32,395 nucleotides of DNA from positions 1-32,395 of the forward strand of contig JANYLG010000192.1 in NCBI GenBank assembly GCA_025363775.1. The letters run 5' to 3'. The DNA is from Acidobacteriota bacterium (GTDB lineage: Bacteria > Acidobacteriota > Vicinamibacteria > Vicinamibacterales > Fen-181). The position numbers and the translations under genes are program-made. How positions within the stretch are numbered: position 1 is the stretch's first letter; every line of letters begins with the position of its first letter. Shown here one piece after another: positions 3,820-23,892 of this stretch. The notes beneath the pieces were generated by a model. It was not told the DNA's origin, searched no databases, and worked only from the letters and a program-made list of their open reading frames with translations.

Positions 3820-5010
3820 TTGGAGAACAGCACACCGCAAGGCGCGAACGGTTGGGCGCGGAGCAGATGGTACGCCCTCGCCGCCGGCATCGCGCTGCTG
3901 GCGATCGCGTACGGCATCGTGAGCGTCATCGGATCGCGTCGCGAGACCGCGATCCGAACTGCGTCCGACGCCGCCCGCGTGGCCGTTCGGGAGGCACGTA
4001 CCGCAGAGGCCAAGACGTGGGCCCCGGATGAATTGAGGGCCGCCGAACGCGCCTCGAGCGACGCGCTGACCGCCCAGCGCATCGAGGAGACGGGATTCTG
4101 GCCCGTCCCCGACGCCGCGCGCGTCGTCCGAGCGTATGCTGGAGCCGAACGTGCGGCGCGAGAGGCGCTCACACTCGCGCGCACGCGCCGCGCGGCGGCG
4201 GAAGGTGGGGCGACCTCCCAGATCGAGGAAGCCGGCGCGGCCGTCTCGTCCAGCGAGACGCTGGCCTTGACGATCCACGTTGGCGCCGAGCGCCGCCGCA
4301 TGTTGGCCCAGGCGCGATCGGTCCTGGAGGAAGCGCGCGCCTACCAGCGCGAGGGCGATTTCAAGAGCGCGGCCATGCGTGCGCGCCAGGCCACGGAACT
4401 GGCCGTGGGCCTGCGCGACGACGCGGCTGCGGTGGCCGCCCGCTACGCCGATTCCGACACGGTCGCACGGTGGCAGCGCTGGAAGGAAGAAACCATCGCC
4501 TGGTCCCGGCGCGAGGGCCGGGTGGCAATCGTCGTGTTCAAGGAAGCGCACCTGCTGACGCTCTTCGTGCGCGGCGAGCCAGTGAAGACGTACCAGGTCG
4601 ACCTGAGCGTCAATTGGATCGCCGACAAGTCGCAGGAAGGCGACCGCGCAACCCCCGAGGGCCGATACCGGGTGGCCAGTCGGACGGCGAATCTGTCGTC
4701 GGTCTATTACAAGGCCCTGCTCCTCGACTACCCCAATGCGGAAGACCGCGCCAGGTTCAGCCGCGCGCGCCGCAGCGGTGAGGTACCGCCTTCGGCCAGA
4801 ATCGGCGGCCTCATCGAGATCCATGGCGGGGGCGGCCGTCGCCAGGATTGGACGACCGGCTGCGTCGCCCTGGCGAATACCGACATGGACGAGGTGTTTG
4901 GTCGCGTGGGCGTCGGCACGCCCGTCACCATTGTGGGAAACGACAACTATGGAGCCATCGCCGAGTTTGCCGTCAAGCAACGGCAGGCCAGAGCCGGCCG
5001 CCGGCCCTGA
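3820..5010 (+). CDS. Membrane-anchored L,D-transpeptidase (YkuD) with helical N-terminal domain
   Basis: A 396-aa protein. Residues 18-38 form a membrane anchor. Residues 40-220 are an Ala/Arg/Glu-rich helical region with a DUF4398-like motif ('TWAPDELRAAE'). Residues 225-375 form a YkuD domain, which cross-links peptidoglycan or joins proteins to it by L,D-transpeptidation and normally faces the periplasm. The active-site segment has His335 ('IEIHGGGG') and Cys348 ('WTTGCVALAN'); the residue two before Cys is Thr rather than the common His, a known-looking but non-canonical variant. The start is a TTG with AGGA nine bases upstream; no better start is visible. The gene lies between the lipoprotein gene and a second transpeptidase gene and overlaps the latter. 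Confidence 0.88.
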   Translation: MENSTPQGANGWARSRWYALAAGIALLAIAYGIVSVIGSRRETAIRTASDAARVAVREARTAEAKTWAPDELRAAERASSDALTAQRIEETGFWPVPDAARVVRAYAGAERAAREALTLARTRRAAAEGGATSQIEEAGAAVSSSETLALTIHVGAERRRMLAQARSVLEEARAYQREGDFKSAAMRARQATELAVGLRDDAAAVAARYADSDTVARWQRWKEETIAWSRREGRVAIVVFKEAHLLTLFVRGEPVKTYQVDLSVNWIADKSQEGDRATPEGRYRVASRTANLSSVYYKALLLDYPNAEDRARFSRARRSGEVPPSARIGGLIEIHGGGGRRQDWTTGCVALANTDMDEVFGRVGVGTPVTIVGNDNYGAIAEFAVKQRQARAGRRP

Positions 5011-9053: not shown

Positions 9054-9162
9054 GGACATTCTCCTTGGTAACCGGTCAGGTACTCTCGGTCATCGCGCCT
9101 GGCCGGGCGCATCGGCGCCCTCGGTGCATAGCCGTCGTCGGGCGGCGGACCACTGAGCAGGG

Positions 9163-9274: not shown

Positions 9275-11401
9275 ATGGCACGAACCGTCGTTCGCGTGGC
9301 TGCCGTCGTCGCGGCGCTGTGGTCGGTCACGCCGGCGTCGAATCCGGCCGGGCAAACTCGGCCTGCGCGGCGCCCGAACATTCTGCTCGTCACGATCGAT
9401 ACCCTGCGGCCGGACCGGGTCGGCGTGTACGGCGCCCGGTCGCCGGCGACGCCGGTGATGGATCGGCTGGCGGCTGGCGGCTGCCTGTTCGAGGACGCAG
9501 TGGTCCAGGTGCCCTTGACGCGGGCGTCTCACGCGACCATCCTCACCGGACTCTACCCGTTCCAGCACGGCATCCGCGACAACTTCGCTCCACCGCTCGC
9601 GGCCGCTCACCGGACGCTGGCCGAAATTCTCAAGGGACAGGGGTACGTCACCGGCGGATTCGTCGGATCGTTCATCGTGAATACGCAGTCGGGGTTGAAT
9701 CGCGGGTTCGACGAGTTCGACGACGTATTCGAAACGGGCGGCAAGGGCTCCGCCTTCTTCACCGAGTACCAGCGGCGTGCCGGGCAAGTGGAAGAGCGTG
9801 CAGGCCCGTGGATCGAGCGGGTAGCCGCCGGGAGCCGGCCGTTCTTTGCCTGGGTCCACTTCTACGACCCGCATTCACCGTACACGCCCCCGCCGCCCTA
9901 CAACACGCGCTATGCCAAGACCCCGTACGACGGCGAAGTCGCGTACACCGACGAAATTCTCGGGCGGCTCTTGGCGCGCCTGACCAAGCTCGGGGTCGCC
10001 GACCGTACGCTGGTGGTCTTCACCTCCGATCACGGCGAGGCGCTCGGCGAGCACAAGGAGGAAGAACACGGCTTCTTCGTCTACGACGTCGTGTTGCGCG
10101 TGCCGCTCATCCTGCGGATGCCCGGCCGGGTTGCCGCAGGCGTACGGGCGAAGACGGAGGCGCGGAGCATCGACCTGCTTCCGACGATCCTCGACCTGGC
10201 CGGCGTCCGCGCGGCCACTCCGCCGGGGCTGCCCGGTCGTTCGCTCGCGGCGGCGATCGACGCGCCCCAGAAGAAAGACCCGCAGGTCGTCTCCTACTCC
10301 GAGACGCTCTTTCCGCGCCTGCACTTCGGCTGGAGCGAGTTGCGATCGGTCCGCATGGGGGGCTGGAAGTACATCCAGGCGCCGCGGCCCGAACTCTACG
10401 ATCTCGCGCACGATCCCGGCGAGCGAAGCAATCTCTTCGCGGCCGAAGGGCAGCGCGCGGCAGCCCTGCGGTCGCGCCTGCTCGACACACTCGGCGGCAG
10501 TCCCGAGTCGGCCGTCGTCGGCGTGGCCAGCCCGAAGCTGGATCAGGCGACGATGGACCGCCTGGCCAGCCTCGGGTACGTCAGCGGGCCGGGCGGCGGC
10601 GCGCCGAGCAACGCGGACCCGAAGGACAAGATCGACGAGTTCCTGGCTTACGGCGGGGCAATCCGGAGCGCCCTCGCAGCGTTCGAGCGAGGCGACCTCC
10701 AGGCGGCGGTCAAGGGGCTCGAGGCCATCGTCTCGGCAGGGCGCGGCGGGTTCGACGTGAGCTTCTACCTCGGCCGCGCCTACCTCACGCTCGGGAATTT
10801 CCAGGCCGCGGTCCCGCACCTGCGCGAAGCGATCCTCAAGGTCCCGACCTACACGCCTGCCTATCTCGAGCTGGCAAAGGCGTTCGTGGCACTCCGGCAA
10901 TTCGACGAGGCCATGCGCATCCTGCGAGACGGCCTCGCGCGCGACCCCGGCAACTTCGAATTCCACTCGCACCTCGGCTTCATTGCCCGCGCCAGGCGGG
11001 ACCTGCCGACCGCGCGCCGGCACTACGAGACCGCCCGGTCGCTCGAGCCCGGGGACTTCGACGTGCGCATGAACCTCGGCGCGATCTACCGGGACCTGGG
11101 CGAGCCGAAACTGGCGCTCCAGGAGGTGGATGCCGCGCTGAAGATCCAGCCGTCCGCAGGCGAGGCGCACAACCAGCGGGGCATGCTGCTCGGAGGCTTG
11201 GGCGATTTTACCAGGGCGGCCGGCGCCTTCGAACGAGCCACGACCCTGGATCCGAAGAACGCGTCGACCTGGTTCAACCTGGGTCTGGCACGGCTGCGCA
11301 CGGGGAACAACGCGGGCGCCGCCGCCGCGTTGAGGAAGGCCATCGAGCTGAAGCCAGACTTCGACGAAGCCAAGGCACTGCTCGCCAAAGCCGGGCGCTG
11401 A
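9275..11401 (+). CDS. Sulfatase-fold (alkaline phosphatase superfamily) protein fused to TPR repeats
   Basis: A 708-aa exported protein. A signal peptide or anchor is followed by a sulfatase-fold domain (about 33-420): the metal-binding 'ILLVTIDTLRPDRVG', the active-site segment 'VPLTRASHATILTG' and 'FTSDHGEALGEH'. The usual formylglycine Cys of C-x-P-S-R is Thr82 here and the Arg is His. It therefore should not need formylglycine activation, and a phospho- or other ester transferase/hydrolase is as plausible as a sulfatase. About six TPR repeats (about 465-708) suggest a partner protein. It is closely similar to the minus-strand gene at 14401-16566. The stop lies only nine bases before the receptor promoter. 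No clear SD is visible before the ATG. The 804-aa ORF in another frame is a shadow. Confidence 0.9.
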   Translation: MARTVVRVAAVVAALWSVTPASNPAGQTRPARRPNILLVTIDTLRPDRVGVYGARSPATPVMDRLAAGGCLFEDAVVQVPLTRASHATILTGLYPFQHGIRDNFAPPLAAAHRTLAEILKGQGYVTGGFVGSFIVNTQSGLNRGFDEFDDVFETGGKGSAFFTEYQRRAGQVEERAGPWIERVAAGSRPFFAWVHFYDPHSPYTPPPPYNTRYAKTPYDGEVAYTDEILGRLLARLTKLGVADRTLVVFTSDHGEALGEHKEEEHGFFVYDVVLRVPLILRMPGRVAAGVRAKTEARSIDLLPTILDLAGVRAATPPGLPGRSLAAAIDAPQKKDPQVVSYSETLFPRLHFGWSELRSVRMGGWKYIQAPRPELYDLAHDPGERSNLFAAEGQRAAALRSRLLDTLGGSPESAVVGVASPKLDQATMDRLASLGYVSGPGGGAPSNADPKDKIDEFLAYGGAIRSALAAFERGDLQAAVKGLEAIVSAGRGGFDVSFYLGRAYLTLGNFQAAVPHLREAILKVPTYTPAYLELAKAFVALRQFDEAMRILRDGLARDPGNFEFHSHLGFIARARRDLPTARRHYETARSLEPGDFDVRMNLGAIYRDLGEPKLALQEVDAALKIQPSAGEAHNQRGMLLGGLGDFTRAAGAFERATTLDPKNASTWFNLGLARLRTGNNAGAAAALRKAIELKPDFDEAKALLAKAGR

Positions 11402-11410
11402 CCATTCGCC

Positions 11411-11439
11411 TTGACACCATGGATCGACGCTCCTACACT
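11411..11439 (+). promoter_or_regulatory. Sigma-70-type promoter of the TonB-dependent receptor
   Basis: A perfect -35 TTGACA (11411-11416), an exact 17-bp spacer and -10 TACACT (11434-11439). It starts nine bases after the sulfatase-fold gene's stop and predicts a leader of about 135 nt before the receptor ATG. It is the best promoter match in the window. Confidence 0.75.
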
Positions 11440-11498
11440 ACCTCACCGATAGCTCTTCCAGGGTCTGTGCACGTCCGTTCCACAAGTCTCGCATCGCG

Positions 11499-11572
11499 CC
11501 TCCACGCTCCTGTGGCGGTTTCTGTCGGGCTTGCGGGTTCCGCACGGGTCGGTCGTCTACTTGCGTGGGAGG
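11499..11572 (+). promoter_or_regulatory. Possible Shine-Dalgarno-occluding helix in the receptor leader
   Basis: CCTCCACGC at 11499-11507 can pair with GCGTGGGAGG at 11563-11572 with one bulged G. The right arm contains the receptor's GGAGG ribosome-binding site (11568-11572). A smaller hairpin (TGCGG-GTT-CCGCA) lies between the arms. This would allow control of translation by leader folding. No known riboswitch class is recognised. Confidence 0.35.
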
Positions 11573-11579
11573 TGATCGT

Positions 11580-14366
11580 ATGCGACGAGCTGTCCTCGGC
11601 ATGGTGCTGCTGGTGCTGGGCGCGTTCCTGCTCTCCCCGGCGTCAGGCACCGCACAAATCGTCACCGGCACCCTCCGTGGTGTCGTCACCGACGGCACCG
11701 GAGCCATACTCCCCGGCGTCACGGCGGAACTGACCGGGCCGGCGCTCATCGGCGGCCCGAAGACGGTGGTGACGGATGGGAAGGGCCAGTACCGTTTCCC
11801 GAACCTGGCCCCCGGGATCTACACGATCACCGCCACCCTCTCCGGCTTCCAGACGACGCGCCGCGAGGGGATCCGCGTCGAGGTTGGCAGCCAGTTCGAC
11901 GTGGACTTCAAGATGGCCGTCGGCGGCGTGTCCGAAACGGTCACCGTCGAAGCCGCCGTGAATCTGGTGGACACGTCCCGATCGGCCATGACGACGACGA
12001 TCCCGACCGAGTTGCTCGAGTCCACGCCCACCGCCCGGTTCACGTTCTTCGACGTCGCGTACATGACACCCGGCGTCTCGACCGCGCGGTTCGACAACAG
12101 CGCGTCCCGCGCGTCGGCGTTTGGCGCGAACGTCAACGAGAACCAGTACCTGTTCGACGGCGCGGACATCACCGCCACGCAGACCGGCGCGGCATGGGTC
12201 TGGCCGAGCACCGACATCATCGAGGAAGTACAGGTGATCGGTCTCGGCGCGCCGGCCGAGTACGGCAACTACCAGGGCGCGGTATTCAACGTCATCACCA
12301 AGTCGGGCAGCAACAGGTTCTCCGTCAACGGCAACTTCTACTGGCAGCCAGCGGCGCTGACCGGGACCAACGTGAAGCTGGAGAATCCAGATACCGGCGA
12401 CGTATGGGGCTTCAACCGATCGCAGTACCGGGACTTCAGCCTCCAGGTCGGCGGCCCGATCAAGAAGGACAAGCTGTGGTACTTCGGCGGCATGCAACTG
12501 CGCCACGATCACTTCTCCGAGCCGGGAACGAACCCCGCGTGGCCGAAGATGGAGAACGACTGGCGCGCCTTCGGCAAGGTGACGTGGCAGCTGAGCAAGA
12601 ACAACAAGATCAACGCTTCCTTGGAGTGGGACGGCAACACGATCCCGCGCACCGTCACGATCAACTCGCCGTACTCCGTCGGGGGCTCGGAGGTCGGCAA
12701 CCAGCCGGTGCCCAACATCTCGTGGACGTCAGTCATCAACGACAAGACGTTCGTGGACGTGAAGTACGCCGGGTTCTACGGCGTGGACAAGTGGCGGCCG
12801 AACTCCGGCGACTTCAACACGCCGGGGCACTACGACAGCTCCACCGGGGTGTACTCCGTCAACAGCGCCAGTTGGTACGACGGCAACGTGTGGAAGACGC
12901 AGATTTCGGGAAAAGTGTCTCGCTTCATCCCGAATGCTGCGGGGAGTCACGATCTGCGGGCCGGGGTGCAGTACATCGGGGGCGGCAGTGACTACAAGCA
13001 GGGCTACGCCGGCGGGATGACGTACTACGACTACAAGGGCCAGTACGACGAGCTGCGGGTCCAGAACGCGTACCACCGCGACAGCGCGATGCGCAACATC
13101 GGCGTGTTCATCGACGACACGTGGAACGTCGCGAAGCGGGTCAGCCTCACGCTGGGTCTCCGCTTCGACCACTCCACCGGAACGGTGCCAGACTATCCAC
13201 AGCTCGACGCCCTCGGCAACACGACCGGTACCACCATCACAAATCCAGGCGACGTCGTCTTCTGGAACAACATTTCGCCTCGTGTCGGCGCGAACTTCAG
13301 GTTCGACGAATCGGGCAAGACGATCGGGCGCTTCCATTACGGCCGGTTCTACGGCCAGCTGCAGACGCGCATCTACCGCGACCTCAACCGCGCGGTAGCG
13401 CCCGCCACGCTCTACGCCCTCGACCCGAAGACGGGCTCGAAACTGAGCGTCATCAGCGTCACGGATCCCACAATAGGAATCCCCGAACTACAGGACAACC
13501 TGAAGGCTCCTTACACCGACCAGATATCCGTCGGCCTCGACCGCGAGCTCGGCGGCAACATTTCGATTGGCGGGTCGTTCATCTACAAGAAGGGCGGCGA
13601 CCTCATCGGCCGCACGCGGCCCCACGCCACCTTCACGCCGGTCAACTGGACCTACACCGACCGCAACGGGCAGTCGAGGACGGTGACGCTCCAGTCGCAG
13701 AACAACACGGACGCCGTGGGGAACACCGTGCGTATCATCAGCCAACCGCTGTTCCACCAGGAGTACAGGGGGCTCGTCCTCCAGGCGAACAAGCGGCTGG
13801 CGAACAACTGGATGATGCTCGCGTCACTGACGGTGTCGAAGTCCTACGGCATGAACGCCGGGAGCGCCTCGCGCGACCCGGGCACGCAGCAGAACTCGAA
13901 CGTCGGCACGTTCGGCCGCGACCCGAACGACTTCATCAACGCCGACGGCGTACTGACCGGCGACCGCCCGTACATGTTCAAGATGCAGGGGGCGTACAAC
14001 CTTCCCCTCGGGATCCAGGTCAGCGGCGACTGGCAATTGCTTTCGGGCCGGCCGATTTTCACCGCGGTCCGGACGCCGAGCGGGCTGCTCAAACAGGGAC
14101 GGCTCTATATCTTCGATGTCCCCAGGCCTGAGGAAGTCGTCCGCGCGTCCCGGTTGAACCTGGTCGGTTTCCGCGCGCAAAAGGACTTCAAGTTCGCGAA
14201 CAATCGGAAGGCCAGCCTCTCCGTGGACCTCCTCAACGCGTTCAACGACGACTCGTACTACGAGGTGTCGAGCACCGTCGTCCCGTCCGCCTCGCAGGCG
14301 TACCTGCAGGGCGTCACGTTCGTGCCCCCGCGCCGGGCGAATATCGTGCTGAAACTGTGGTTCTGA
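11580..14366 (+). CDS. TonB-dependent receptor, Oar-like, with carboxypeptidase-regulatory domain
   Basis: A 928-aa outer-membrane protein. It has a signal peptide ('VLGMVLLVLGAFLLSPASGT'), a carboxypeptidase-regulatory-like domain at about 30-110 ('GVVTDGTGAILPGVTAELTG'), then a plug region ('NENQYLFDGADIT', 'NYQGAVFNVITKSGSNRF'). A long beta-barrel follows, with many aromatic alternating strands and a typical C-terminal Phe ('RRANIVLKLWF'). Such Oar-type receptors take up large ligands or oligomers using TonB energy; the ligand cannot be read from sequence. I use the ATG at 11580, which has GGAGG seven bases upstream, not the GTG at 11565. It lies between two homologous sulfatase-fold/TPR genes that point towards it, which suggests shared substrate handling. 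A bidirectional terminator hairpin follows. Confidence 0.92.
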   Translation: MRRAVLGMVLLVLGAFLLSPASGTAQIVTGTLRGVVTDGTGAILPGVTAELTGPALIGGPKTVVTDGKGQYRFPNLAPGIYTITATLSGFQTTRREGIRVEVGSQFDVDFKMAVGGVSETVTVEAAVNLVDTSRSAMTTTIPTELLESTPTARFTFFDVAYMTPGVSTARFDNSASRASAFGANVNENQYLFDGADITATQTGAAWVWPSTDIIEEVQVIGLGAPAEYGNYQGAVFNVITKSGSNRFSVNGNFYWQPAALTGTNVKLENPDTGDVWGFNRSQYRDFSLQVGGPIKKDKLWYFGGMQLRHDHFSEPGTNPAWPKMENDWRAFGKVTWQLSKNNKINASLEWDGNTIPRTVTINSPYSVGGSEVGNQPVPNISWTSVINDKTFVDVKYAGFYGVDKWRPNSGDFNTPGHYDSSTGVYSVNSASWYDGNVWKTQISGKVSRFIPNAAGSHDLRAGVQYIGGGSDYKQGYAGGMTYYDYKGQYDELRVQNAYHRDSAMRNIGVFIDDTWNVAKRVSLTLGLRFDHSTGTVPDYPQLDALGNTTGTTITNPGDVVFWNNISPRVGANFRFDESGKTIGRFHYGRFYGQLQTRIYRDLNRAVAPATLYALDPKTGSKLSVISVTDPTIGIPELQDNLKAPYTDQISVGLDRELGGNISIGGSFIYKKGGDLIGRTRPHATFTPVNWTYTDRNGQSRTVTLQSQNNTDAVGNTVRIISQPLFHQEYRGLVLQANKRLANNWMMLASLTVSKSYGMNAGSASRDPGTQQNSNVGTFGRDPNDFINADGVLTGDRPYMFKMQGAYNLPLGIQVSGDWQLLSGRPIFTAVRTPSGLLKQGRLYIFDVPRPEEVVRASRLNLVGFRAQKDFKFANNRKASLSVDLLNAFNDDSYYEVSSTVVPSASQAYLQGVTFVPPRRANIVLKLWF

Positions 14367-14378
14367 TGTGATCGGTGG

Positions 14379-14400
14379 GCGCGGGGCGCCAGCCCCGCGC
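14379..14400. terminator. Bidirectional terminator hairpin between convergent genes
   Basis: A perfect 9-bp stem, GCGCGGGGC (14379-14387) with GCCCCGCGC (14392-14400), loop GCCA. It fills the 34-nt gap between the receptor stop and the stop of the convergent sulfatase-fold gene. T-tracts are absent on both sides, as is common in GC-rich genomes. Confidence 0.6.
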
Positions 14401-16566
14401 TCACTCGTCGTGCGGCACCTTCTCCACCTCCGCCAGCAGCGTTCGCGCCTCCCCGAAATTCGGCTTGATCGCCAGCGCCCGGTGCAGCGCCTCAGCGGAG
14501 GCCCGCCGGTCGCCGGCCCGATACCGCGCCAGTCCCAGATTGAACCAGAACTGCGGGTTCCCGGGCGCCAGCGTCGATGCGCGCTCGAACGCCGCGGCCG
14601 CGTCCGGGAAGCGGCCGGCGCCGCCGAGCAGCATGCCGCGCTGGTTGTGCGCGTCGCCCTCGTCCGGCCGAAGGGCCAGTGCGGCGTCCACCTCGCCAAT
14701 GGCGCGTGCGACGTCGCCCGTGTCGCGATACACGGCCGACAGGTTCATCCGCACGTCGAAATCGCGTGGCTCCAGCGCCCTGGCCTTCTCGTACTCTGCC
14801 TTCGCGGCATCCAGATCCCGCCGCGCCCGCGCGATGAAGCCCAGGTGCGAGTGGAACTGGAAGCTGTCCGGATCCCTGGACAGGCCCTCCCGGAGTACCG
14901 CCACCGCGGCGTCGTACTGGCCGATCGCGACGTGCGCCCTCGCGAGGTCGATGTAGGACGGAGCGTAGGTCGGCAGCTTCCGAATCGCCTCCCGCAGGGG
15001 ATCGATCGCCTGCGCGGACCGGCCCTGCCGCAGGTACGCGGCGCCGAGATAGTAGTACACGTCGAAGGCCGCGCGCCCCGTCTCGATAGCCGACTGGAAC
15101 TGCGCGATCGCGGACGGGAGGTCGCCGCGGTCGTAGGCCTCAAACGCCCCGCGGACCCGCCGCGTGTACGCCTGGAATTCCGCGATCGCATCCTTCGGGT
15201 CGGCGCGGCCGCTTCCGCCGCCGCTTCCACCGACGTAACCCAGGCTGGCCAGACGGCGGAGCGTCTCCGGGTCGAGCGCGGGATTGGCGACGCCGACCAC
15301 GGCCGACTCGGGGCTGCCACCGAGCGCGTCGAGCAGGCGTGAACGCAGCGTCCGCGCACGCGGGCCCTCCCGCGCGAACAGGTTCGTCCGTTCTCCCGGG
15401 TCGCGATCGAGATCGTAGAGCTCGGGCCGCGGTGCCTCGATGTACTTCCACCCGCCGAGCCGGATCGACCTCAGGTCGGCGCAGTCGAAGTGGAGACGCG
15501 GGAAGAGGGTCTCGGCGTACGCGGCGACGTCGCTGGCGGTGCTGCCGGGCGTCCGGAGAGCCGGCGCCAGGGAACGGCCGGGCAGCGCACCCGAAATGCC
15601 AGTTCCGCCCCCGACGAGGTCGAGAATCGTCGGCATGAGGTCGATGCTTCGGGCCTGGGTCCGCGTCCGCAGTCCGGCCGGAAGCATCCCGGGCCCCCGC
15701 ATGATGAGCGGCACCCGCACGGTGGTGTCGTAGACGAAGAACCCGTGCTCGGCCTCGCCGTGTTCGCCCAGGCCTTCTCCGTGGTCGGATGTCACGACGA
15801 CGAGGGTGCGCTCGCGAATTCCGATCCGATCGAGCCGCGACAGCAGCAGGCCGAGCACCGAGTCGGTGTACGCCACTTCGCCGTCGTAGGGACGGCCCGC
15901 GTAGCGGGCTGCGTAAGGCGATGGCGGCGTATAGGGGGAATGCGGATCGTAGAAGTGCACCCACGCGAAGAACGGCCGGGCGCCCGAGGCGACGCGCTCG
16001 ATCCACGGGCCCGCGCGCTGCTCGACCTCACCGGCGTTCCGCTGGTGCTCGGCCAGGAAGCTTGACGCATCGCCGATTTTGCCGAACGAGTCGTCGAACT
16101 CGTCGAAGCCGCGGTCGAGACCCGACTGGCGGTTCAGCATGAACGCGGCGACGAACCCGCCCGTGACATAGCCCCGTGACGTCAACTCCTCCGCCAGGGT
16201 ACGGTGCTCAGGGGCGAGCGGGAACGAGAAGTTGTCGCGGATGCCGTGCTGGAAGGGGTGCTTCCCGGTGAGAATCGACGCGTGCGATGGGCGGGTCAGT
16301 GGGACCTCAACCGTCGCCTGCTCGAACAACACGCCGTCCTTCGCGAGCCGGTCGAGCGTCGGCGTCAACGAACTCGTCGCACCATATGCGCCCACCCGGT
16401 CCACTCGAAGCGTGTCGATGGTCACCAGCAGCACGTTGGGACGCGTGGCCAGCGACGGACCACGCCGGCGGGTCTCGCCGTGCGCCGCGATCACGGCGAG
16501 CGCCAGCGCAAGCGCCACGAACGACCGCCGACCCCGGAGACGCACTGCCTTCATCGTCCTGCTCAT
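14401..16566 (-). CDS. Sulfatase-fold protein fused to TPR repeats, second copy
   Basis: A 721-aa exported protein and paralogue of 9275-11401; long stretches are nearly identical, such as 'GPWIERVASGARPFFAWVHF' and 'FQHGIRDNF'. The signal peptide is followed by 'VLLVTIDTLRVDRVG', 'VPLTRPSHASILTG' with Thr91 at the formylglycine position, 'VTSDHGEGLGEH', and about six C-terminal TPRs. The start is the ATG at 16566; an ATG four codons later has AGGA close by. It is the last gene of a five-gene operon, 39 nt after the racemase gene, with a hairpin in the gap. The context suggests that an extracytoplasmic ester- or phosphate-modified compound is processed alongside peptide catabolism. The exact reaction is unknown. 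Confidence 0.9.
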   Translation of the reverse strand: MSRTMKAVRLRGRRSFVALALALAVIAAHGETRRRGPSLATRPNVLLVTIDTLRVDRVGAYGATSSLTPTLDRLAKDGVLFEQATVEVPLTRPSHASILTGKHPFQHGIRDNFSFPLAPEHRTLAEELTSRGYVTGGFVAAFMLNRQSGLDRGFDEFDDSFGKIGDASSFLAEHQRNAGEVEQRAGPWIERVASGARPFFAWVHFYDPHSPYTPPSPYAARYAGRPYDGEVAYTDSVLGLLLSRLDRIGIRERTLVVVTSDHGEGLGEHGEAEHGFFVYDTTVRVPLIMRGPGMLPAGLRTRTQARSIDLMPTILDLVGGGTGISGALPGRSLAPALRTPGSTASDVAAYAETLFPRLHFDCADLRSIRLGGWKYIEAPRPELYDLDRDPGERTNLFAREGPRARTLRSRLLDALGGSPESAVVGVANPALDPETLRRLASLGYVGGSGGGSGRADPKDAIAEFQAYTRRVRGAFEAYDRGDLPSAIAQFQSAIETGRAAFDVYYYLGAAYLRQGRSAQAIDPLREAIRKLPTYAPSYIDLARAHVAIGQYDAAVAVLREGLSRDPDSFQFHSHLGFIARARRDLDAAKAEYEKARALEPRDFDVRMNLSAVYRDTGDVARAIGEVDAALALRPDEGDAHNQRGMLLGGAGRFPDAAAAFERASTLAPGNPQFWFNLGLARYRAGDRRASAEALHRALAIKPNFGEARTLLAEVEKVPHDE

Positions 16567-16568
16567 CA

Positions 16569-16588
16569 GGCCGGCGGAAGAGCCGGCC
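16569..16588 (-). promoter_or_regulatory. Intercistronic hairpin before second sulfatase-fold gene
   Basis: A 7-bp stem, GGCCGGC (16569-16575) with GCCGGCC (16582-16588), and a 6-nt loop fill most of the 39-nt gap. It could reduce read-through or protect the upstream transcript. There is no T-run. Confidence 0.45.
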
Positions 16589-16605
16589 GGCCCGCCGCCG
16601 TTGGG

Positions 16606-17715
16606 TCAGGCGCAGAATTCCTGGCGCCGCACGGTGACCTTCTCCAGCCTTTCCTGCACCACCTCGACGCCAATCCCTGGCCCCGTCGGCACCGCCATCG
16701 TGCCGTCACGCGCCACCTCGAAGGCGGGCTCGACGATGTCCTGGCGGTAGTACCGCTTGCTGGCCGAAATGTCACCAGGCAGCGTGAAGTTCGGCAACGA
16801 GGCGAGCGCCACGTTGCCCGCCCGCCCGATGCCCGACTCCAGCATGCCGCCGTGCCAGACCGGGATGTGCTGCGACGCGCACAGATCGTGGATCAGCCGC
16901 GACTCGGTGAAGCCGCCCACGCGCCCCGGCTTGATATTGATCACGCGGCAGCTCTTCAGCTCGAGGGCCGCCCGCGCGTCCGCGACCGAGTGGATGCTCT
17001 CGTCCAGGCAGATCGGCGTCTTCAGCTCGCGCTGCAGCTTCGAGTGATCGTAGATGTCGTCGTGCGCGAGCGGCTGCTCGATGAGCAGCAGGCCGTACCC
17101 GTCCATGGCGCGGAAGATCTCCACGTCGCCCAGCTCGTACGCCGAGTTCGCGTCCACCTGGAACAGAATGTCCCGGTACTCACGGCGAACCGCCCTGACG
17201 TACTCGAGGTCGCTCCCCGGCGCGATCTTGATCTTGATCCGCTGATACCCTTCCTCGAGGTACCCGGTCACCTTCTTCACGAGGTCCGCGGGGGACGACT
17301 GGATGCCGATGCTCACACCGACGTCGATCCGCTCGCGGGTGCCGCCGAGCAGGCGCGACAGCGACACGCCCTGCGCCTTGGCGAACGCGTCCCAGAGCGC
17401 CGATTCCAGGCCGGCCTTCGCCATCATGTGCCCGCGCACGCGCGCCCCGAGCGCGATCGCATCGACCACGCTGGAGATCTCCTTGCCGAGAACGGCGGGA
17501 ATCAGGAAGTCGCGCAGGATGTGCCAGGCGGTCTCTGTCGTCTCGTAGGAGTAGAACGGCGTGCTCTCGACGACCGACTCGCCCCACCCCGTCACGCCGT
17601 CCGCGTCCACCCGGACGATGATGTGCTCCTCGTCGGTCTCGACGCCCATCGAGGTGACGAACGGCGCCACCAGGACGAGCTTCACGTGCCTCAGTTCGAT
17701 TCGCTCGATACGCAT
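16606..17715 (-). CDS. Enolase-superfamily N-acylamino-acid racemase / o-succinylbenzoate synthase-like
   Basis: A 369-aa cytoplasmic protein of the MenC/NSAR subgroup. Visible catalytic features are Lys161 and Lys163 ('RIKIKIAPGSD'), metal ligands Asp188 ('FQVDANSAY'), Glu213 ('IEQPLAHDD') and Asp238 ('CLDESIHS'), and Lys262 ('INIKPGRVGG'), followed by 'GGMLESGIGRAGNVALASLP'. These positions match those known for N-succinylamino-acid racemases almost exactly. Menaquinone genes are absent nearby, while a dipeptidase and an amino-acid transporter are adjacent, so racemisation of N-acyl amino acids is more likely than o-succinylbenzoate synthesis. Sequence alone does not separate the two. AGGAG precedes the ATG. 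It is fourth in the operon, 28 nt after the transporter gene. Confidence 0.88.
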   Translation of the reverse strand: MRIERIELRHVKLVLVAPFVTSMGVETDEEHIIVRVDADGVTGWGESVVESTPFYSYETTETAWHILRDFLIPAVLGKEISSVVDAIALGARVRGHMMAKAGLESALWDAFAKAQGVSLSRLLGGTRERIDVGVSIGIQSSPADLVKKVTGYLEEGYQRIKIKIAPGSDLEYVRAVRREYRDILFQVDANSAYELGDVEIFRAMDGYGLLLIEQPLAHDDIYDHSKLQRELKTPICLDESIHSVADARAALELKSCRVINIKPGRVGGFTESRLIHDLCASQHIPVWHGGMLESGIGRAGNVALASLPNFTLPGDISASKRYYRQDIVEPAFEVARDGTMAVPTGPGIGVEVVQERLEKVTVRRQEFCA

Positions 17716-17728
17716 ACGTGCTCCTGTC

Positions 17729-17745
17729 GAGGCCCTCGCGGCCTC
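17729..17745 (-). promoter_or_regulatory. Intercistronic hairpin before racemase gene
   Basis: GAGGCC (17729-17734) pairs with GGCCTC (17740-17745) around a 5-nt loop. It overlaps the transporter stop codon and lies just before the racemase SD. It may influence translation coupling. It is short, so this is tentative. Confidence 0.3.
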
Positions 17746-19195
17746 ATTCCCACTGGAAGAAGAGGACGGGCGGAATCAACAGCAGGAAGCTCAACACCAC
17801 CAGGATGAGCATCAGCGGGAAGAACCACCGCGCCCAGCGATCCCACGGGATCTTCGCCGCGCCGAGCACGCCCATCGTGACGGCGCTGGTGGGGAGGATC
17901 GGGTTGATGAACTCACATAACTGGTACGCGTACACGGCGGTCTGCCGCGTGATGCCCGTCAGGTCCGCCAGTGGCGCCATGACCGGCATCGTCAGCGCCG
18001 CCTGCGCCGTGCCGGAGTGGATGAAGAAGTTGATGACGCACTGGAGGAGGAACATGAGCTGGGCGATGACGCCCCGCGGCAGCGCGGTGAGCAGGCTCGA
18101 CGTCCCGTAGAGGATGGTGTCCATGATCTTCGCGTCCTGCGCGATGACCAGCAGGGCTCGCGCGCAGGCGACGATGAACACCACGCCGACCATGTCCTTG
18201 GCCCCGGTCACGAAGGTCTTCGCGACGCGGCTCGGCCCCATCCCGCCGGCGAACCCCAGCACGATGCCCATGCCGAAGAAGAGCATCGCGATCTGGTCGA
18301 TGTACCACTGCCACTTCAGGACGCCCACGACGAGCAGGACCATGGAGACGACAAACAGCGTCAGCGTGGCCACGTGCCGCGCGTCCCAGCCGACGTCGGC
18401 GCCGGAGTGCGGCTGCACCGCCTCGCGCTCGCGGTCGATGTCTCGGACCAGGCTGATCTCGGGGTGGCGCTTCACCTTCCGGGCGTAGCGCATCACGTAG
18501 GCGATGATGACCGCGGTCCCGACGACCCAGGTGATGAGACGGTAGACGAGACCCGAGTAGAGCGGCACGCCCGAGATGCTCTGCGCGATGCCGACCGTGA
18601 ACGGGTTGAAGAACGCCGCCGCGAAGCCCGCCGCCGCGCCGAGGAAGGGGATCGACGCGCCGACAATCGAGTCGTACCCGAGGCTCCTCGCCAGCGGGAT
18701 GAAGATGATCACGAAGGGGATGGTCTCCTCGGCCATCCCGAAGATCGACCCGGCGAGCGAGAACACCACCATCAGGGCCGGGATGATCATCCCCTCCAGG
18801 TACGGCCGCCGTGTGATCGACGCGGTCAGCCGCCTGATGCCGAACTCCACGGCCCCCGTCTCCTGGAAGATGGCGAAGCTGCCGCCGATCATCAGCAGGA
18901 AGCAGATCAGGAGGGCGCCGTCGAGGAACCCCTTGATCGGCGCCATCAGCACCATCTGCGGGCCCAGGTACACCTTCGGCACCTGCTGGTAGGTCCCCGC
19001 TACAGTGACGCTGCGCACACCCGCGCTCGTCTGGACGTTCACCCGCTGGTACTGCCCGGACGGGATCACCCACGAGAGGGCCAGCACCAGGATGACGAGG
19101 GCGAACACCACCACGAGGGTGTGGGGCATGTGCATCCGCTTCAGCCACGAGTGCCTCTCGGGCGGGACGACGGTCGCGGATCCAGTGCGATTCAT
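17744..19195 (-). CDS. YfcC-family membrane transporter
   Basis: A 483-aa polytopic inner-membrane protein of the YfcC/DcuC-like family (COG1288 type). These proteins are thought to move basic amino acids, peptide-derived or C4-dicarboxylate-like solutes. About 11-12 hydrophobic segments are visible, beginning with 'MPHTLVVVFALVILVLALSW'. A large periplasmic loop follows helix 1. Family-like stretches include 'FGMAEETIPFVIIFIPLA', 'GFAAAFFNPFTVGIAQS' and 'FINPILPTSAVTMGVLGAAK'. GAGGA lies about nine bases before the ATG. It is third in the operon, between the isoaspartyl dipeptidase and the racemase, and should import the compounds these enzymes act on. Confidence 0.9.
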   Translation of the reverse strand: MNRTGSATVVPPERHSWLKRMHMPHTLVVVFALVILVLALSWVIPSGQYQRVNVQTSAGVRSVTVAGTYQQVPKVYLGPQMVLMAPIKGFLDGALLICFLLMIGGSFAIFQETGAVEFGIRRLTASITRRPYLEGMIIPALMVVFSLAGSIFGMAEETIPFVIIFIPLARSLGYDSIVGASIPFLGAAAGFAAAFFNPFTVGIAQSISGVPLYSGLVYRLITWVVGTAVIIAYVMRYARKVKRHPEISLVRDIDREREAVQPHSGADVGWDARHVATLTLFVVSMVLLVVGVLKWQWYIDQIAMLFFGMGIVLGFAGGMGPSRVAKTFVTGAKDMVGVVFIVACARALLVIAQDAKIMDTILYGTSSLLTALPRGVIAQLMFLLQCVINFFIHSGTAQAALTMPVMAPLADLTGITRQTAVYAYQLCEFINPILPTSAVTMGVLGAAKIPWDRWARWFFPLMLILVVLSFLLLIPPVLFFQWE

Positions 19196-19223
19196 GCGTG
19201 CGATCCTCGGACGTGGGTTCGGC

Positions 19224-20387
19224 CTATTCGAAGGTGCCCCTGGCGAGCGCGACGCCCGCCTTCATCAGCCAGCGGCCCCGGGCGACGACGCTGTGGATCT
19301 CGAGATCCCCCGGCGTCAGCAACACCAGGTCGGCAGCGTGACCGGCTGCCAGCTGGCCCTTTCCGCGCAGCCTGAGGATGCGCGCGGGATTGGACGTGAT
19401 GACCGACAGCGCCACGTCCAGCGGCACCCGCTCCTGGAGCACGGCGTCGCGCACTTCCGGGAAGAGGCTGGTGACACGGCCCACGCCGACGCCGACCGTC
19501 CGGCCCTGCGCGTCGAAGTTCGGCAGGCTCCCCTGCCCGTCCGACGTGAAGGTGATCTGCGTCCCCGCCACGCCTGCGTCGAGCATGCGGCGCAGCCCCT
19601 GGCTGCACTTCACCTCGCCCTCCGCGATGTACGCCGGGACCGTGGACGTGGTGAAGTCCACGAACCCCCCGGCCTTCGCGTGCGCGATCCCCTCCTCGAA
19701 CAGGCCCGGGTTGCGGTTGATGTGGGTGGGCAGGAACTGCGTGGCCGGAATCTCGGTCTCGGCGATAACGCGGCGTAGCAGATCCAGCCCCCGGCGGCCA
19801 TCCCCGAGGTGGATGTTGACGATACCCGCCTTGCCCGAGAGGATGCCTCCGCGGCGCGATTCGGCCGCAAGGCGGACGAACTCGTCGAAGGTCGGTTGCG
19901 TCGAGCGGTGATCGGAAATGGCGACCTCGCCCACGCCGATGATCTTGTCCACGAACAGCAGGTCGCGTTCGATGCTGCCGGTGAGTGTCTGCAGCGGGAC
20001 GGCGTAGTGGCCGGTGAGCACGAACGTGCTGATGCCCTCCTCGTCGAGGCCACGGGCCTTCGCCAGGAGACCGGCGAGGCTGCGTGTGACGCCATCGGTT
20101 CCGAGGCAGCCGACCACGGTCGTCACGCCGCCGCGAATCGCGTCGGACAGCGCCAGCTCTGGCGTTCGCGTGGCGTACCCGCCCTCTCCGCCGCCCCCGA
20201 GGATGTGAACGTGGGCGTCCACGAAGCCGGGCACGGCGACGAACCCGGCGGCGTCGAACACCTCGCAGTACTCAACCGGCATGCGAATCTCCGGCTCCAC
20301 GCGCAGGACCCGGCCGCCAGCCATCAGCACATCCACTCGGCCGGCCCGAGCGGGCGTGTAGACCTCGGCGTTCTTGATCAACAGCAT
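19224..20387 (-). CDS. iadA: Isoaspartyl dipeptidase (amidohydrolase superfamily)
   Basis: A 387-aa cytoplasmic metallopeptidase that releases beta-aspartyl residues from isoaspartyl dipeptides. The metal motif 'DAHVHILGGGGEGG' (His59, His61) and 'LSDAIRGGVTTVVGCLGTDG' are typical of IadA, as are His193 ('NIHLGD'), His222 ('LPTHINRN') and Asp283 ('FTSDGQGS'). At the position where E. coli IadA has its carboxylated bridging Lys (as I recall, before 'AISDHRS'), this protein has Glu154 ('GVGEVAISDHRS'). It may be a variant subgroup with glutamate as the bridging ligand. GGGAG lies six bases before the ATG. It is second in the operon, 30 nt after the CapA-like gene. Confidence 0.9.
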   Translation of the reverse strand: MLLIKNAEVYTPARAGRVDVLMAGGRVLRVEPEIRMPVEYCEVFDAAGFVAVPGFVDAHVHILGGGGEGGYATRTPELALSDAIRGGVTTVVGCLGTDGVTRSLAGLLAKARGLDEEGISTFVLTGHYAVPLQTLTGSIERDLLFVDKIIGVGEVAISDHRSTQPTFDEFVRLAAESRRGGILSGKAGIVNIHLGDGRRGLDLLRRVIAETEIPATQFLPTHINRNPGLFEEGIAHAKAGGFVDFTTSTVPAYIAEGEVKCSQGLRRMLDAGVAGTQITFTSDGQGSLPNFDAQGRTVGVGVGRVTSLFPEVRDAVLQERVPLDVALSVITSNPARILRLRGKGQLAAGHAADLVLLTPGDLEIHSVVARGRWLMKAGVALARGTFE

Positions 20388-20417
20388 CGACAGCTCCCTG
20401 ACCGGCTCAGCCTCCGC

Positions 20418-21767
20418 CTACAGCGCGACCTCCGCGTACCAGCCCTTGACGGTGATCTTCGTTCCGTACGGCTCGGACAGCTTCTGGATCTTCTCGAACA
20501 TCTCCTTCGCCCGCTGATCGGTCACCAGCCGGGGCACGCCGTAGAGCGGCCCCTCGTCGTCGATTGCGATCGGGATCAGCTGGATCTTCCGCAGCTTGTC
20601 GCCGTTGACCGTCATTCGCACCAGCACGCCTTCCATCGTCTCCGGCGTGTCCCTCCGGTCCCACACCGACACGTTGGTCGGGCGTTCCAGCTCGGTGTCA
20701 CGCTGGTGGATCAGGTCGATCGGGATCTTGTCGGGCGTCCGGTACTGATAGATGAAGTCCGAGAGGCTGAAGAAGATCGGCTTGCCCTTGTAGATTTCGA
20801 TGCCGCGCAGCACGTGGGGCCCGCTGCCAAGCACCATGTCTGCGCCCGCGTCGATCGCTCTCCGGTACATGATCTCGTCGTTGGCCGGCGTCTTGTTCTG
20901 GATGCCGTAGACCCGGTGGTGGCTGACGTCGTGATTGTGGAGGGAGACCATGAGGAGGTCGGCGTGCCGCCTCGCCACCACGATGTCGTCTTCCATCGCC
21001 TGGACGTCGCCCTCGAGCGGCCCCTCGACCGATTCGACCTTGCCGTCCTTCGCCACGAGGATCATCGCCGGATCGATCGTGGCAAGCGAGGGTGCGTTCG
21101 GGTCCGCGCTGCGGTACTTGTTCGTCCAGTACCGCATGTACGACAGCAGCGAGAACCGGGTCGTCCGGCTCTGCACCCGGTGCGTGCCGGGCGCGTGCGC
21201 CGCGGCGAGCGTCGCGCCCGCCCCGGCGTGCGTGATGCTGGTCAGATCGAGCGCGCGCAGGCACTCCTTCAGCCCCTCGGGGCCGAAGTCGAGGGCGTGG
21301 TTGTTCGCCATGCTGACCATATTGATGCCGATGCTGGCGACCTCCCACGCGAACTCCCGCGGCGCCCGGAAGTTGTAGAACGGCCGCTGCAGCTCCGGGT
21401 GCTCGTTGATCGAGAACTCGAGGTTCCCATAGCCGATGTCCGCTTCCTGCATGATGCGGAAGAGGCCCTTGCGGTTGGGATCCGGCAGGTCGCTGATCTT
21501 CTGGTTGAAGATCATGTCGCCGACGGCGGTGATGATGGTGTCGCCAGGCTCCTCTTTGATGAGCTGCGTAATCCGCTCGTCCCAGTTGACGGTGGCTGGC
21601 GCCTCCTTGGGCCGGACGAGGCGGTTGTAGACCGACCGGCTCTGGTCCCACGTGATCTTGCCCTGCGGGGCCTGCGCGAGGCCAGCGTCGCCGGCCAGGA
21701 GCAGGAACCCGGCCAACCAGACTGGCACACAGAAGACCTTCAGCAGACCCCGCCAGTTCGCACTCAT
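20418..21767 (-). CDS. Secreted CapA/PgsA-family metallophosphoesterase-like protein
   Basis: A 449-aa protein. A signal peptide ends near residue 33 ('AGLAQAPQ'). The CapA fold follows: 'ITAVGDMIFNQ' (Asp84), 'GNLEFSIN' (Asn115, Glu117), 'MANNHALDFG' (Asn155, His156), 'LHNHDVSHH' and 'GSGPHVLRGIEIYKGKPIF'. CapA/PgsA proteins are linked to poly-gamma-glutamate production or handling. No pgsB or pgsC partner is present, so poly-gamma-glutamate synthesis is unlikely here. It is first in an operon with an isopeptidase, a transporter and a racemase, so processing of gamma- or beta-linked peptide material outside the cytoplasm is a reasonable guess. GAGGAGG precedes the ATG. Confidence 0.88.
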   Translation of the reverse strand: MSANWRGLLKVFCVPVWLAGFLLLAGDAGLAQAPQGKITWDQSRSVYNRLVRPKEAPATVNWDERITQLIKEEPGDTIITAVGDMIFNQKISDLPDPNRKGLFRIMQEADIGYGNLEFSINEHPELQRPFYNFRAPREFAWEVASIGINMVSMANNHALDFGPEGLKECLRALDLTSITHAGAGATLAAAHAPGTHRVQSRTTRFSLLSYMRYWTNKYRSADPNAPSLATIDPAMILVAKDGKVESVEGPLEGDVQAMEDDIVVARRHADLLMVSLHNHDVSHHRVYGIQNKTPANDEIMYRRAIDAGADMVLGSGPHVLRGIEIYKGKPIFFSLSDFIYQYRTPDKIPIDLIHQRDTELERPTNVSVWDRRDTPETMEGVLVRMTVNGDKLRKIQLIPIAIDDEGPLYGVPRLVTDQRAKEMFEKIQKLSEPYGTKITVKGWYAEVAL

Positions 21768-21849: not shown

Positions 21850-23892
21850 CTACTCCTTCCCGGGCAACTCCGGCTTCGCAAAGTCCGGCAGCGGGTCACC
21901 AAAGATGTAGTGATTGAACCACCCCAGGTTGTGCTCCATCACGGCGCGCATCGCCTTCGGCTTGGTGATGCCGTGGCCGAAGCCCTTGTAGACGACCATC
22001 TCGGCCGTCACACCCCGATCCTCCAGCCCCTGGCGGAGCTCGTACGCGTTGGCGATCGGCACACGACGATCCAGCTCACCGTGCTGGATCAGCGTGGGGG
22101 TCCTGGCCTGCTTGATGTACGTCATCGGCGAGGTCTTCGCATAGATCTCCGGGTCGGCCGCCGGGTCGGCGCCAAGGTACTGGACGGTGAAGGGGGTGAT
22201 GTCGGTGTTGTAGTAGTAGGTGGCCCAGTTGGAGATGCCAGCGCCGACCGAGATCGCGGCGAACGCGTCACTCGAGGTCGTCAGGAACGCCGAGATGTAC
22301 CCGCCCTGGCTCCAGCCCATGCACCCCACGCGCTTGGGGTCCACCCATCCGAGCTTGACCAGGTGATCCACGCCGGACAGCACGTCCCAGGCGTCGCCCA
22401 CGCCGAGATTGCGCACGTTGAGCTGCCGGAACTTCTCCCCGTATCCGGCGCTGCCGCGGTAGTTGACTTTCAGGATCAGCGCGCCCCTCTCCGCCCAGAT
22501 GTCCGACGGATAGGTGCGCGTGTCGATCATCGTCGGCCGATCCACCCCGGTCGGACCGCCATGGATGATGCAGAGGAGCGGGTACTTCCTGGCCGCGTCG
22601 AAGTCGGCGGGCTTGATCAGCACTCCTTCGATCTCTGTCCCGTCCTTGCTCTTCCACGAGATGACCTCGCGACGACCCAGTCGGTAGCCGCTCACCTGGT
22701 CGGTCATCGTCGTCAGACGACGAGGCGCAAACGGCTGGATCGACGACACGTAGATCTCGCTCAGCGTCGTGGGCGAAGCCGCCGTAAAGACCACCGACCT
22801 GCCGTCCCTGGTGACGCTGGCCCCTCCGAGCATCAATGTATCCGGCTGGCTGAGACGCGTCGTCTTGCCCGTCGTCGGATCCACCCGGAACAAGTGGGAG
22901 GCTGTCTTCTGTGACGCCCCGAAGTAGATCCCGTCGGCGTACCAGTCGATCAGCCCCGGCTGCTCGTCGAATCCGTCGGTGATCGAGCGCGGCACGCCCC
23001 CTTCGACTGGCACGACCGCGAGCCGGCTGTTGGCGTGGAAGGACTTCGGGTTCCCCATCGCCGACGAGAACACCAGCATCCGGCCATCGGGCGACCACCG
23101 GGGACCGTTGTCCGGCCCCGCGAGGTCCACGACCTTTCGAACCGCGTTCGTGGACAGATCCAGGAGGTAGATATCGGCGGTGCCGTTTTGCACGAGGTCG
23201 GGGTTGACCGTGGCGCTGAACGCGATGCGCCGGTTATCGGGAGACCACGAGAACGAGGACACGGTGTAGTCCTTGCCCTTGGTGCGCTGCGTGCCTGCGA
23301 CGGGCGCTGCGAGCGCCTCTGCCACGTCGAACGTCCGCAGATGCTGGTGCGCGTACTCGCGGCGCACAACCTCGAAATCGCCCAGGTGGTCCCTGCGCGC
23401 CTTGACGTCCTTCTCGTTGACATCGCTCGTGGTGAAGGCGATCTGCCGGCCGTCGCCGGACCAGGCGTAGCCGCCCGCGCCGTTCTCGGCGTTGGTCAAC
23501 TGCACCGCCTCGCCGCCGTCGGGACGGATGACGAAGATCTGGCTCTTGTCACCCACGCGAGAACTGGTGAACGCCAGCCAGGCTCCGTCGGGCGACCACC
23601 CCGGACTGGCGCACGACTTGTCACCGCGCGTCACCTGGAAGTTCCGGCCGGACGCCACGTGCACGAGCCAGATCTGGGTGACGAACGCGTCCTGCTTCCA
23701 GTCGGCCGAGCTGACGGTGTAGGCCACCCAGGTGCCGTCAGGCGACACCTGGGGGCTGCCGAGGGTCTTCAGGTTGAGGAGGTCATCGATCGCTGGAACC
23801 TGCGTGGCGCTCGTCTGGGCGACGGCGGACCACGGCAGTGCCGCGAGAGCCAGGAAGAGCAAGGCCAGCAGGCGCTTCTTCGTCATTGTCAT
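21850..23892 (-). CDS. S9-family prolyl oligopeptidase (acylaminoacyl-peptidase/DPP type)
   Basis: About 680 aa with a signal peptide ('LLALLFLALAALPWSAVAQ'), so probably periplasmic. The N-terminal part is a seven-bladed WD/PD40-like propeller with repeated 'SPDG' or 'WSPD' turns. The C-terminal alpha/beta-hydrolase domain has 'CIIHGGPTG', Ser528 in 'GWSQGGY', Asp608 in 'GELDRRVP' and His640 in 'GFGHGITK'. It should cleave short peptides. The ORF track runs on to 25110 through the antisense of tdh; I use the ATG at 23892, which has GGAG six bases upstream and gives a proper signal peptide. It precedes the capA operon on the same strand and may add to peptide use. Confidence 0.93.
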   Translation of the reverse strand: MTMTKKRLLALLFLALAALPWSAVAQTSATQVPAIDDLLNLKTLGSPQVSPDGTWVAYTVSSADWKQDAFVTQIWLVHVASGRNFQVTRGDKSCASPGWSPDGAWLAFTSSRVGDKSQIFVIRPDGGEAVQLTNAENGAGGYAWSGDGRQIAFTTSDVNEKDVKARRDHLGDFEVVRREYAHQHLRTFDVAEALAAPVAGTQRTKGKDYTVSSFSWSPDNRRIAFSATVNPDLVQNGTADIYLLDLSTNAVRKVVDLAGPDNGPRWSPDGRMLVFSSAMGNPKSFHANSRLAVVPVEGGVPRSITDGFDEQPGLIDWYADGIYFGASQKTASHLFRVDPTTGKTTRLSQPDTLMLGGASVTRDGRSVVFTAASPTTLSEIYVSSIQPFAPRRLTTMTDQVSGYRLGRREVISWKSKDGTEIEGVLIKPADFDAARKYPLLCIIHGGPTGVDRPTMIDTRTYPSDIWAERGALILKVNYRGSAGYGEKFRQLNVRNLGVGDAWDVLSGVDHLVKLGWVDPKRVGCMGWSQGGYISAFLTTSSDAFAAISVGAGISNWATYYYNTDITPFTVQYLGADPAADPEIYAKTSPMTYIKQARTPTLIQHGELDRRVPIANAYELRQGLEDRGVTAEMVVYKGFGHGITKPKAMRAVMEHNLGWFNHYIFGDPLPDFAKPELPGKE

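Follow-up and report, generated by a model that had tools for sequence, protein, structure and literature searches.

A candidate split cyanophycin-scavenging system in an acidobacterial genome, and a CapA-like subfamily linked to cyanophycinase genes

Cyanophycin is the nitrogen-storage polymer of cyanobacteria. Here we examine a gene array on a 32,395-nucleotide stretch of DNA from a soil acidobacterium (JANYLG010000192.1, hereafter the window), which is one entire contig (C133) of a metagenome-assembled genome (MAG) and encodes a CapA-like protein, the isoaspartyl dipeptidase IadA, a YfcC-type transporter, a racemase of the NSAR/OSBS family and a sulfatase-TPR protein. Members of the CapA/PGA_cap family are commonly annotated as proteins of capsule synthesis. 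The closest described systems are the cyanophycin utilisation loci, which, according to PMC10206079 citing Ben Hania et al., combine a cyanophycinase with IadA and a transporter in genomes that lack a synthetase; the same paper notes that in several lineages the enzymes of cyanophycin degradation have yet to be identified. PMC8528874 describes secreted cyanophycinase together with IadA in Acidobacteriota, and a TonB receptor adjoining cyanophycinase has also been reported (PMC3400609). The initial annotation of the window, made from the sequence alone, knew of no described system with this set, which is true of the full set, but the core matches the published utilisation locus as given in PMC10206079. 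Our best reading treats the window as a split version of such a locus that functions in the same way: its operon would probably provide uptake and dipeptide cleavage, the genes for cutting the polymer would sit elsewhere in the genome, and both halves together would make up a cyanophycin-scavenging system. The new point is the link of a CapA subfamily to cyanophycinase genes; a literature search that paired cyanophycinase with CapA terms found no published link between the two.

The core of the array is the IadA–YfcC pair. The window IadA clears the cut-off of the curated equivalog TIGR01975 (331 bits; scores in Table 1), matches solved IadA relatives with E down to 3.8e-112 and carries no signal sequence, as a cytoplasmic protein. 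The transporter scores 358 bits against the YfcC equivalog NF008611, below its cut-off of 500, so that the name YfcC given by the initial annotation stands for the DcuC superfamily only. IadA followed by a YfcC-type carrier was found in all seven genomes sampled from the window's family (the window's own included, and with G002 as its sister genome), in order-mates and in most Holophagaceae examined, and the named relatives of the window IadA are Acidobacteria and Holophagaceae MAGs. More distant acidobacterial IadA proteins (36–52% identity) come without the carrier, and several touch a cyanophycinase homologue.

In Holophagaceae, the pair lies in a run of TonB receptor, cyanophycinase (S51), M14 peptidase, IadA, YfcC and M28 peptidase, with CapA convergent on the opposite strand, 4–7 kb from the cyanophycinase. 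The S51 proteins of loci L067, L132, L135, L126 and L061 score 161–190 bits, above the curated cyanophycinase cut-off (TIGR02069, 126.6 bits), and the order-mate G060 has a cyanophycinase (179 bits) directly upstream of IadA–YfcC. The window's own genome encodes two cyanophycinases above this cut-off, on contigs C194 (165 bits) and C187 (137 bits); both have signal-like translated N-termini (judged by eye), and the nearest solved chains to the C194 protein are cyanophycinases (E 2e-27). Cyanophycin synthetase (CphA1, TIGR02068) was not found above cut-off in any of the seven family genomes: the best score is 110 bits against a cut-off of 850, and the 100% complete sister is also without it. 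We do not claim the M14 neighbours as CphZ, as their nearest solved chains are carboxypeptidases (E 2e-7) and none is labelled a cyanophycin dipeptide hydrolase. The proposal in the initial annotation of extracellular processing, import and isopeptide cleavage is thus supported in outline: relatives of the pair share one run with a TonB receptor, an M14 peptidase and a cyanophycinase that is exported, and genes of the CapA subfamily adjoin cyanophycinase genes.

We assessed the CapA–cyanophycinase linkage within the Acidobacteriota. The CapA subfamily (E up to 1e-60) was present in 23 of 396 sampled genomes; cyanophycinase (E up to 1e-30) occurred in 22 of these 23 carriers, compared with 118 of the 396 genomes overall. 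The two genes lie within 7 kb of each other in 16 of the 23 carriers, these 16 belonging to four acidobacterial families, and in three families (G380; G237 and G261; G182) they are only 87–183 bp apart, behind a TonB receptor and a GntR-type regulator. If the chance of linkage is set at ~0.5% per lineage, the probability that at least four of six families would show it is ~6e-9, a rough figure whose terms were chosen after the data had been seen. In G005 the arrangement is M28–YfcC–IadA, M14, CapA and an NSAR-type gene, and in the remaining carriers, apart from G322 and G357 (see below), CapA and cyanophycinase are on different contigs. A search of CapA against plasmids gave no match. The GntR-family regulator that stands beside the TonB receptor–cyanophycinase–CapA run in three families (L132:6105–6824, L133:4705–5394, L134:4436–5140 and L135:13706–14356) is likely to be a substrate-responsive switch. 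A more distant CapA (47–52% identity) occurs in G357 (L138:8650–17267), where two amidohydrolase-like open reading frames (ORFs) that resemble N-acyl-D-amino-acid deacylases, as read from sequence, flank the gene.

The nearest solved relative of the window CapA is the epimerase MslH (8gq9, E 4.8e-23), a calcineurin-fold, Ca-dependent lasso-peptide epimerase (PMC10406935). The MslH site that we compared comprises the metal ligands E44, N87, H259 and H261 and the dyads H88/D91 and H295/D11. By alignment, MslH N87, H88, D91, H259, H261 and H295 correspond to CapA N156, H157, D160, H277, H279 and H318, while D11 and E44 were placed by motif at D84 and E117; all eight positions are invariant in 12 relatives. 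The protein scores 116 bits against the MslH-type model NF038314, below its cut-off of 700, and no capB- or capC-like partners were found among the annotated genes beside CapA, either in the window or in the relatives mapped. An AlphaFold2 model built from nine sequences reached a predicted local distance difference test (pLDDT) score of 38.5, so it was left out of the fold searches. CapA is probably a metal-dependent calcineurin-fold enzyme with, to judge from its residues, an intact active site, although these residues are common in the metallophosphatase superfamily and do not tell a hydrolase from an epimerase. Because the metal and catalytic residues of MslH are kept, an exported isopeptide hydrolase or epimerase is plausible, and since this exported protein has an exported cyanophycinase for a neighbour in relatives, the polymer or pieces of it may be what it acts on. 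We put forward, tentatively and at less than even probability, that the CapA subfamily consists of exported enzymes, so far unrecognised, that take part in breaking down cyanophycin or a similar isopeptide. Such an enzyme could be an isopeptide hydrolase of calcineurin fold, or an epimerase that corrects racemised Asp residues in aged polymer, in some lineages paired with an N-acylamino-acid racemase.

We infer the substrate, the direction of transport, the CapA reaction and the role of the racemase as follows. The exported cyanophycinases encoded on other contigs would cut the external cyanophycin of dead cyanobacteria to beta-Asp-Arg, and the exported CapA may assist degradation by hydrolysing isopeptide bonds or epimerising residues in that polymer or in pieces of it. 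The DcuC/YfcC transporter, given its constant pairing with IadA, would import beta-aspartyl dipeptides, which cytoplasmic IadA is expected from its family to split into Asp and Arg or other amino acids. The racemase may either convert N-acyl-D-amino acids back into their L form as a partner in this route, or be no more than menC. The initial annotation had named poly-gamma-glutamate among the substrates for growth tests; we rejected it as first-choice substrate, since the linked hydrolase is a cyanophycinase above the curated cut-off, and cyanophycin or another beta-aspartyl polymer is the likely material instead. If the CapA subfamily does work on cyanophycin, its capsule naming misleads and it would form a new enzyme class in soil nitrogen-polymer recycling; the adjacent exported metalloenzyme is a testable candidate for the missing cyanophycin-degrading enzymes, and the unassigned YfcC transporter group becomes tied to a concrete candidate substrate, beta-aspartyl dipeptides.

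Several points weigh against a split cyanophycin system. No cyanophycinase above cut-off is encoded on the window's contig, so the link runs through relatives, and none was found near IadA–YfcC in G001–G006, G149 or G251 within the DNA around the pair. The window's genome is 83% complete. IadA is promiscuous and also serves protein-damage turnover, as stated in PMC10206079. For CapA, the co-occurrence with cyanophycinase (Fisher p ~1e-11) leaves relatedness uncorrected, the two genes are 2 Mb apart in G322, and G357 has CapA with no cyanophycinase detected in its genome. Finally, most of CapA is gone from sister G002 while IadA–YfcC–NSAR persists, which makes CapA dispensable in that genome.

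The ORF list confirmed the five genes of the initial annotation and their positions, all on the minus strand; the gaps of 30, 28, 28 and 39 nt from CapA through to sulfatase-TPR fall within the 28–39 nt it had given, and the names CapA-like, IadA, racemase and sulfatase/TPR hold by Pfam and NCBIfam scores. The initial annotation had overlooked an S9 peptidase gene on the same strand, 82 nt upstream of CapA. An orthologue of this gene (97% identical) precedes IadA in G002, from whose ORF the start was assigned, and it is probably the first gene of the operon (Table 1). A promoter scan found no sigma-70-like promoter in the region, and terminator-like sites there occur at chance level only; we infer co-transcription of the array genes. 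Elsewhere in the window, positions 7254–9059 encode an exported C69-family dipeptidase, which directly follows the racemase in the sister, where the sulfatase block is gone. Positions 3820–5010 encode a protein with a YkuD L,D-transpeptidase domain, and another ORF of similar appearance overlaps it downstream (to 5740).

Table 1 Genes of the array and of the adjoining sulfatase block, in window coordinates.
Feature	Position	Strand	Evidence
S9 (prolyl oligopeptidase-type) peptidase, exported	21850..23892	-	PF00326 166.6 bits, DPPIV_N, PD40
CapA-like (PGA_cap) protein, 449 aa	20418..21767	-	PF09587 163 bits; Sec-type signal sequence by eye
Isoaspartyl dipeptidase IadA, 387 aa	19224..20387	-	TIGR01975 528 bits
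DcuC/YfcC-family inner-membrane transporter, 483 aa	17744..19195	-	PF03606 335 bits
NSAR/OSBS-family enzyme (type A), 369 aa	16606..17715	-	TIGR01928 361 bits
Sulfatase-TPR protein, exported, 721 aa	14401..16566	-	PF00884 156 bits and many TPR models
Oar-like TonB-dependent receptor (sulfatase block, context)	11565..14366	+	PF25183, PF13620, PF00593
Second sulfatase-TPR gene, inverted copy (context)	9275..11401	+	PF00884 169 bits

The neighbourhood comparison of relatives found the complete five-gene order in no genome other than the window's, which does not bear out a single conserved five-gene system: the racemase lies downstream of YfcC only in the window and G002, and sulfatase-TPR follows only in the window. 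The sister (96–98% amino acid identity) retains IadA–YfcC–NSAR at the same spacing, and blastn against the window shows two clean gaps, which, as G002 is a MAG, might reflect an assembly error. The first corresponds to window 20458–21706 and removes the interior of CapA, of which the last 40 and first ~60 nt remain; the second corresponds to window 9307–16543 (7.2 kb) and takes the TonB receptor and nearly all of each sulfatase-TPR gene, leaving the 5' ends of both sulfatase genes and a short shared sequence at the joint. Because both CapA ends and both sulfatase 5' ends persist, G002 appears to have suffered deletions; for the same reason we rejected a late insertion of CapA and the sulfatase block in the window. 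The retained spacing, together with the remnants of the deleted genes, places the array before the split of the two species, and most likely their ancestor had all five genes, of which the sister lost two.

The racemase is either menC (o-succinylbenzoate synthase) or NSAR, with menC slightly ahead for the window copy. It clears the TIGR01928 cut-off (201 bits), matches the Amycolatopsis NSAR 1sja over its full length (E 2.2e-110), and has the catalytic motifs KxK, DAN, E and D as well as the K-P-G-R motif. That it is menC, its place in the operon being accidental, has a little under an even chance and, as a claim about one gene, is compatible with cyanophycin scavenging. Contig C115 of the same genome holds MenB with MenA-, MenE-, MenD-, MenF- and MenH-like genes together (A, D, F and H read from sequence) and no menC among them, and in the complete sister the orthologue of the window racemase is the sole gene above the TIGR01928 cut-off; its two further members of the enolase superfamily are a ManD-type dehydratase and an exported protein that resembles epimerases. 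Against this, MenB was found in only one (G237) of ~30 tested Acidobacteriota carriers of the NSAR/OSBS family, and since they mostly lack MenB, the family in those genomes is not menC. Three types can be told apart: type A in the window, the sister, G006 and a distant family (f66); type B in G005, G182 and on contig C302 of G001; and type C order-wide, in an accD/folC-like context (read from sequence), whose orthologues could serve as menC in G001 and G004. In G005 and G182, which lack MenB, the type B gene lies beside CapA, and this recurrence weakened our early view of NSAR as a random passenger. The racemisation step of the initial annotation accordingly gains from NSAR-family genes beside CapA in two other genomes, but is clouded by the possibility that the window copy is menC.

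A broader alternative, which we consider unlikely, is general isoaspartyl-peptide salvage, in which the IadA–YfcC pair recovers beta-aspartyl dipeptides that arise from protein damage, fed by S9 and other exported peptidases, with CapA, the racemase and the sulfatase as unrelated neighbours. The IadA of cyanophycin clusters is not specific for beta-Asp-Arg, according to PMC10206079, the pair stands without a nearby cyanophycinase in most genomes of families f1 and f9, and M28, S9 and M14 peptidases are frequent neighbours. Against salvage speak the repeated cyanophycinase–(M14)–IadA–YfcC runs in Holophagaceae and G060 and the two cyanophycinases of the window's genome.

Less probable still is a D-amino-acid route along the lines of the initial annotation, in which CapA would release D-residues or epimerise, NSAR would act as a racemase on N-acyl-D-amino acids, and IadA and YfcC would handle isopeptides, the substrate being a D-containing polymer or aged, racemised Asp-rich material. 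An NSAR gene lies beside or near CapA in three genomes (the window, G005 and G182) and belongs to two NSAR types, with a chance of ~0.2% each; the nearest solved relative of CapA is a peptide epimerase with the same residues; and the deacylase-like ORFs beside the G357 CapA would fit. Most other CapA lineages, however, have no NSAR nearby, neither a D-aminoacylase nor an N-acyltransferase was seen next to the window genes, cyanophycin consists of L-residues, and active-site residues common in the superfamily are no proof of epimerisation.

The sulfatase-TPR gene probably belongs to a separate sulfatase/TonB-receptor block outside the core. An inverted copy of it, with 64% identity, stands on the far side of the TonB receptor, and the sister has lost the entire block (9275–16566). 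On contig C302 of G001 (L151:924–6563) a type B NSAR lies beside a TonB receptor homologue (63%) and a sulfatase-TPR (59%), with no IadA, YfcC or CapA near that block. The gap between the racemase and sulfatase-TPR holds a GC-rich inverted repeat (GGCCGGC ... GCCGGCC, 16567–16600) that may separate transcripts. A genuine pathway of five genes that closes with this one and serves a substrate carrying sulfate or phosphate is very unlikely: the shared strand, the 39 nt gap and the recurrence of NSAR, TonB receptor and sulfatase-TPR in G001 speak for such a pathway, but the inverted copy, loss of the block as a unit, the repeat within the gap (read from sequence) and the G001 block free of core genes speak against it.

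Compared with described systems, the window CapA shares the PF09587 domain with CapA of poly-gamma-glutamate capsules, but has no capB- or capC-like neighbours among the genes read and, in relatives, is linked to cyanophycinase. With MslH it shares the PGA_cap-type calcineurin-fold family, with metal and catalytic residues at matching positions; MslH, however, belongs to a lasso-peptide biosynthetic cluster, whereas CapA has a signal-like N-terminus and a catabolic context. The racemase resembles the Amycolatopsis NSAR/OSBS enzymes (1sja, 4a6g) over its full length and in its catalytic and K-P-G-R motifs, and differs from them in its operon partners. Like Ca. Sulfomarinibacter (PMC8528874), the genome combines cyanophycinases that are probably secreted with an isoaspartyl dipeptidase and no synthetase above cut-off, although in the passages on that organism neither CapA nor a YfcC pair nor a racemase appears. 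We do not count the window as a canonical cyanophycin utilisation locus, because cyanophycinase lies outside the cluster, on other contigs; it also differs in that a CapA-like gene stands where relatives have cyanophycinase or M14. It nonetheless shares with such loci an IadA tightly linked to a transporter, in a genome that has cyanophycinase and lacks CphA1 above cut-off, and its relatives carry all three genes side by side.

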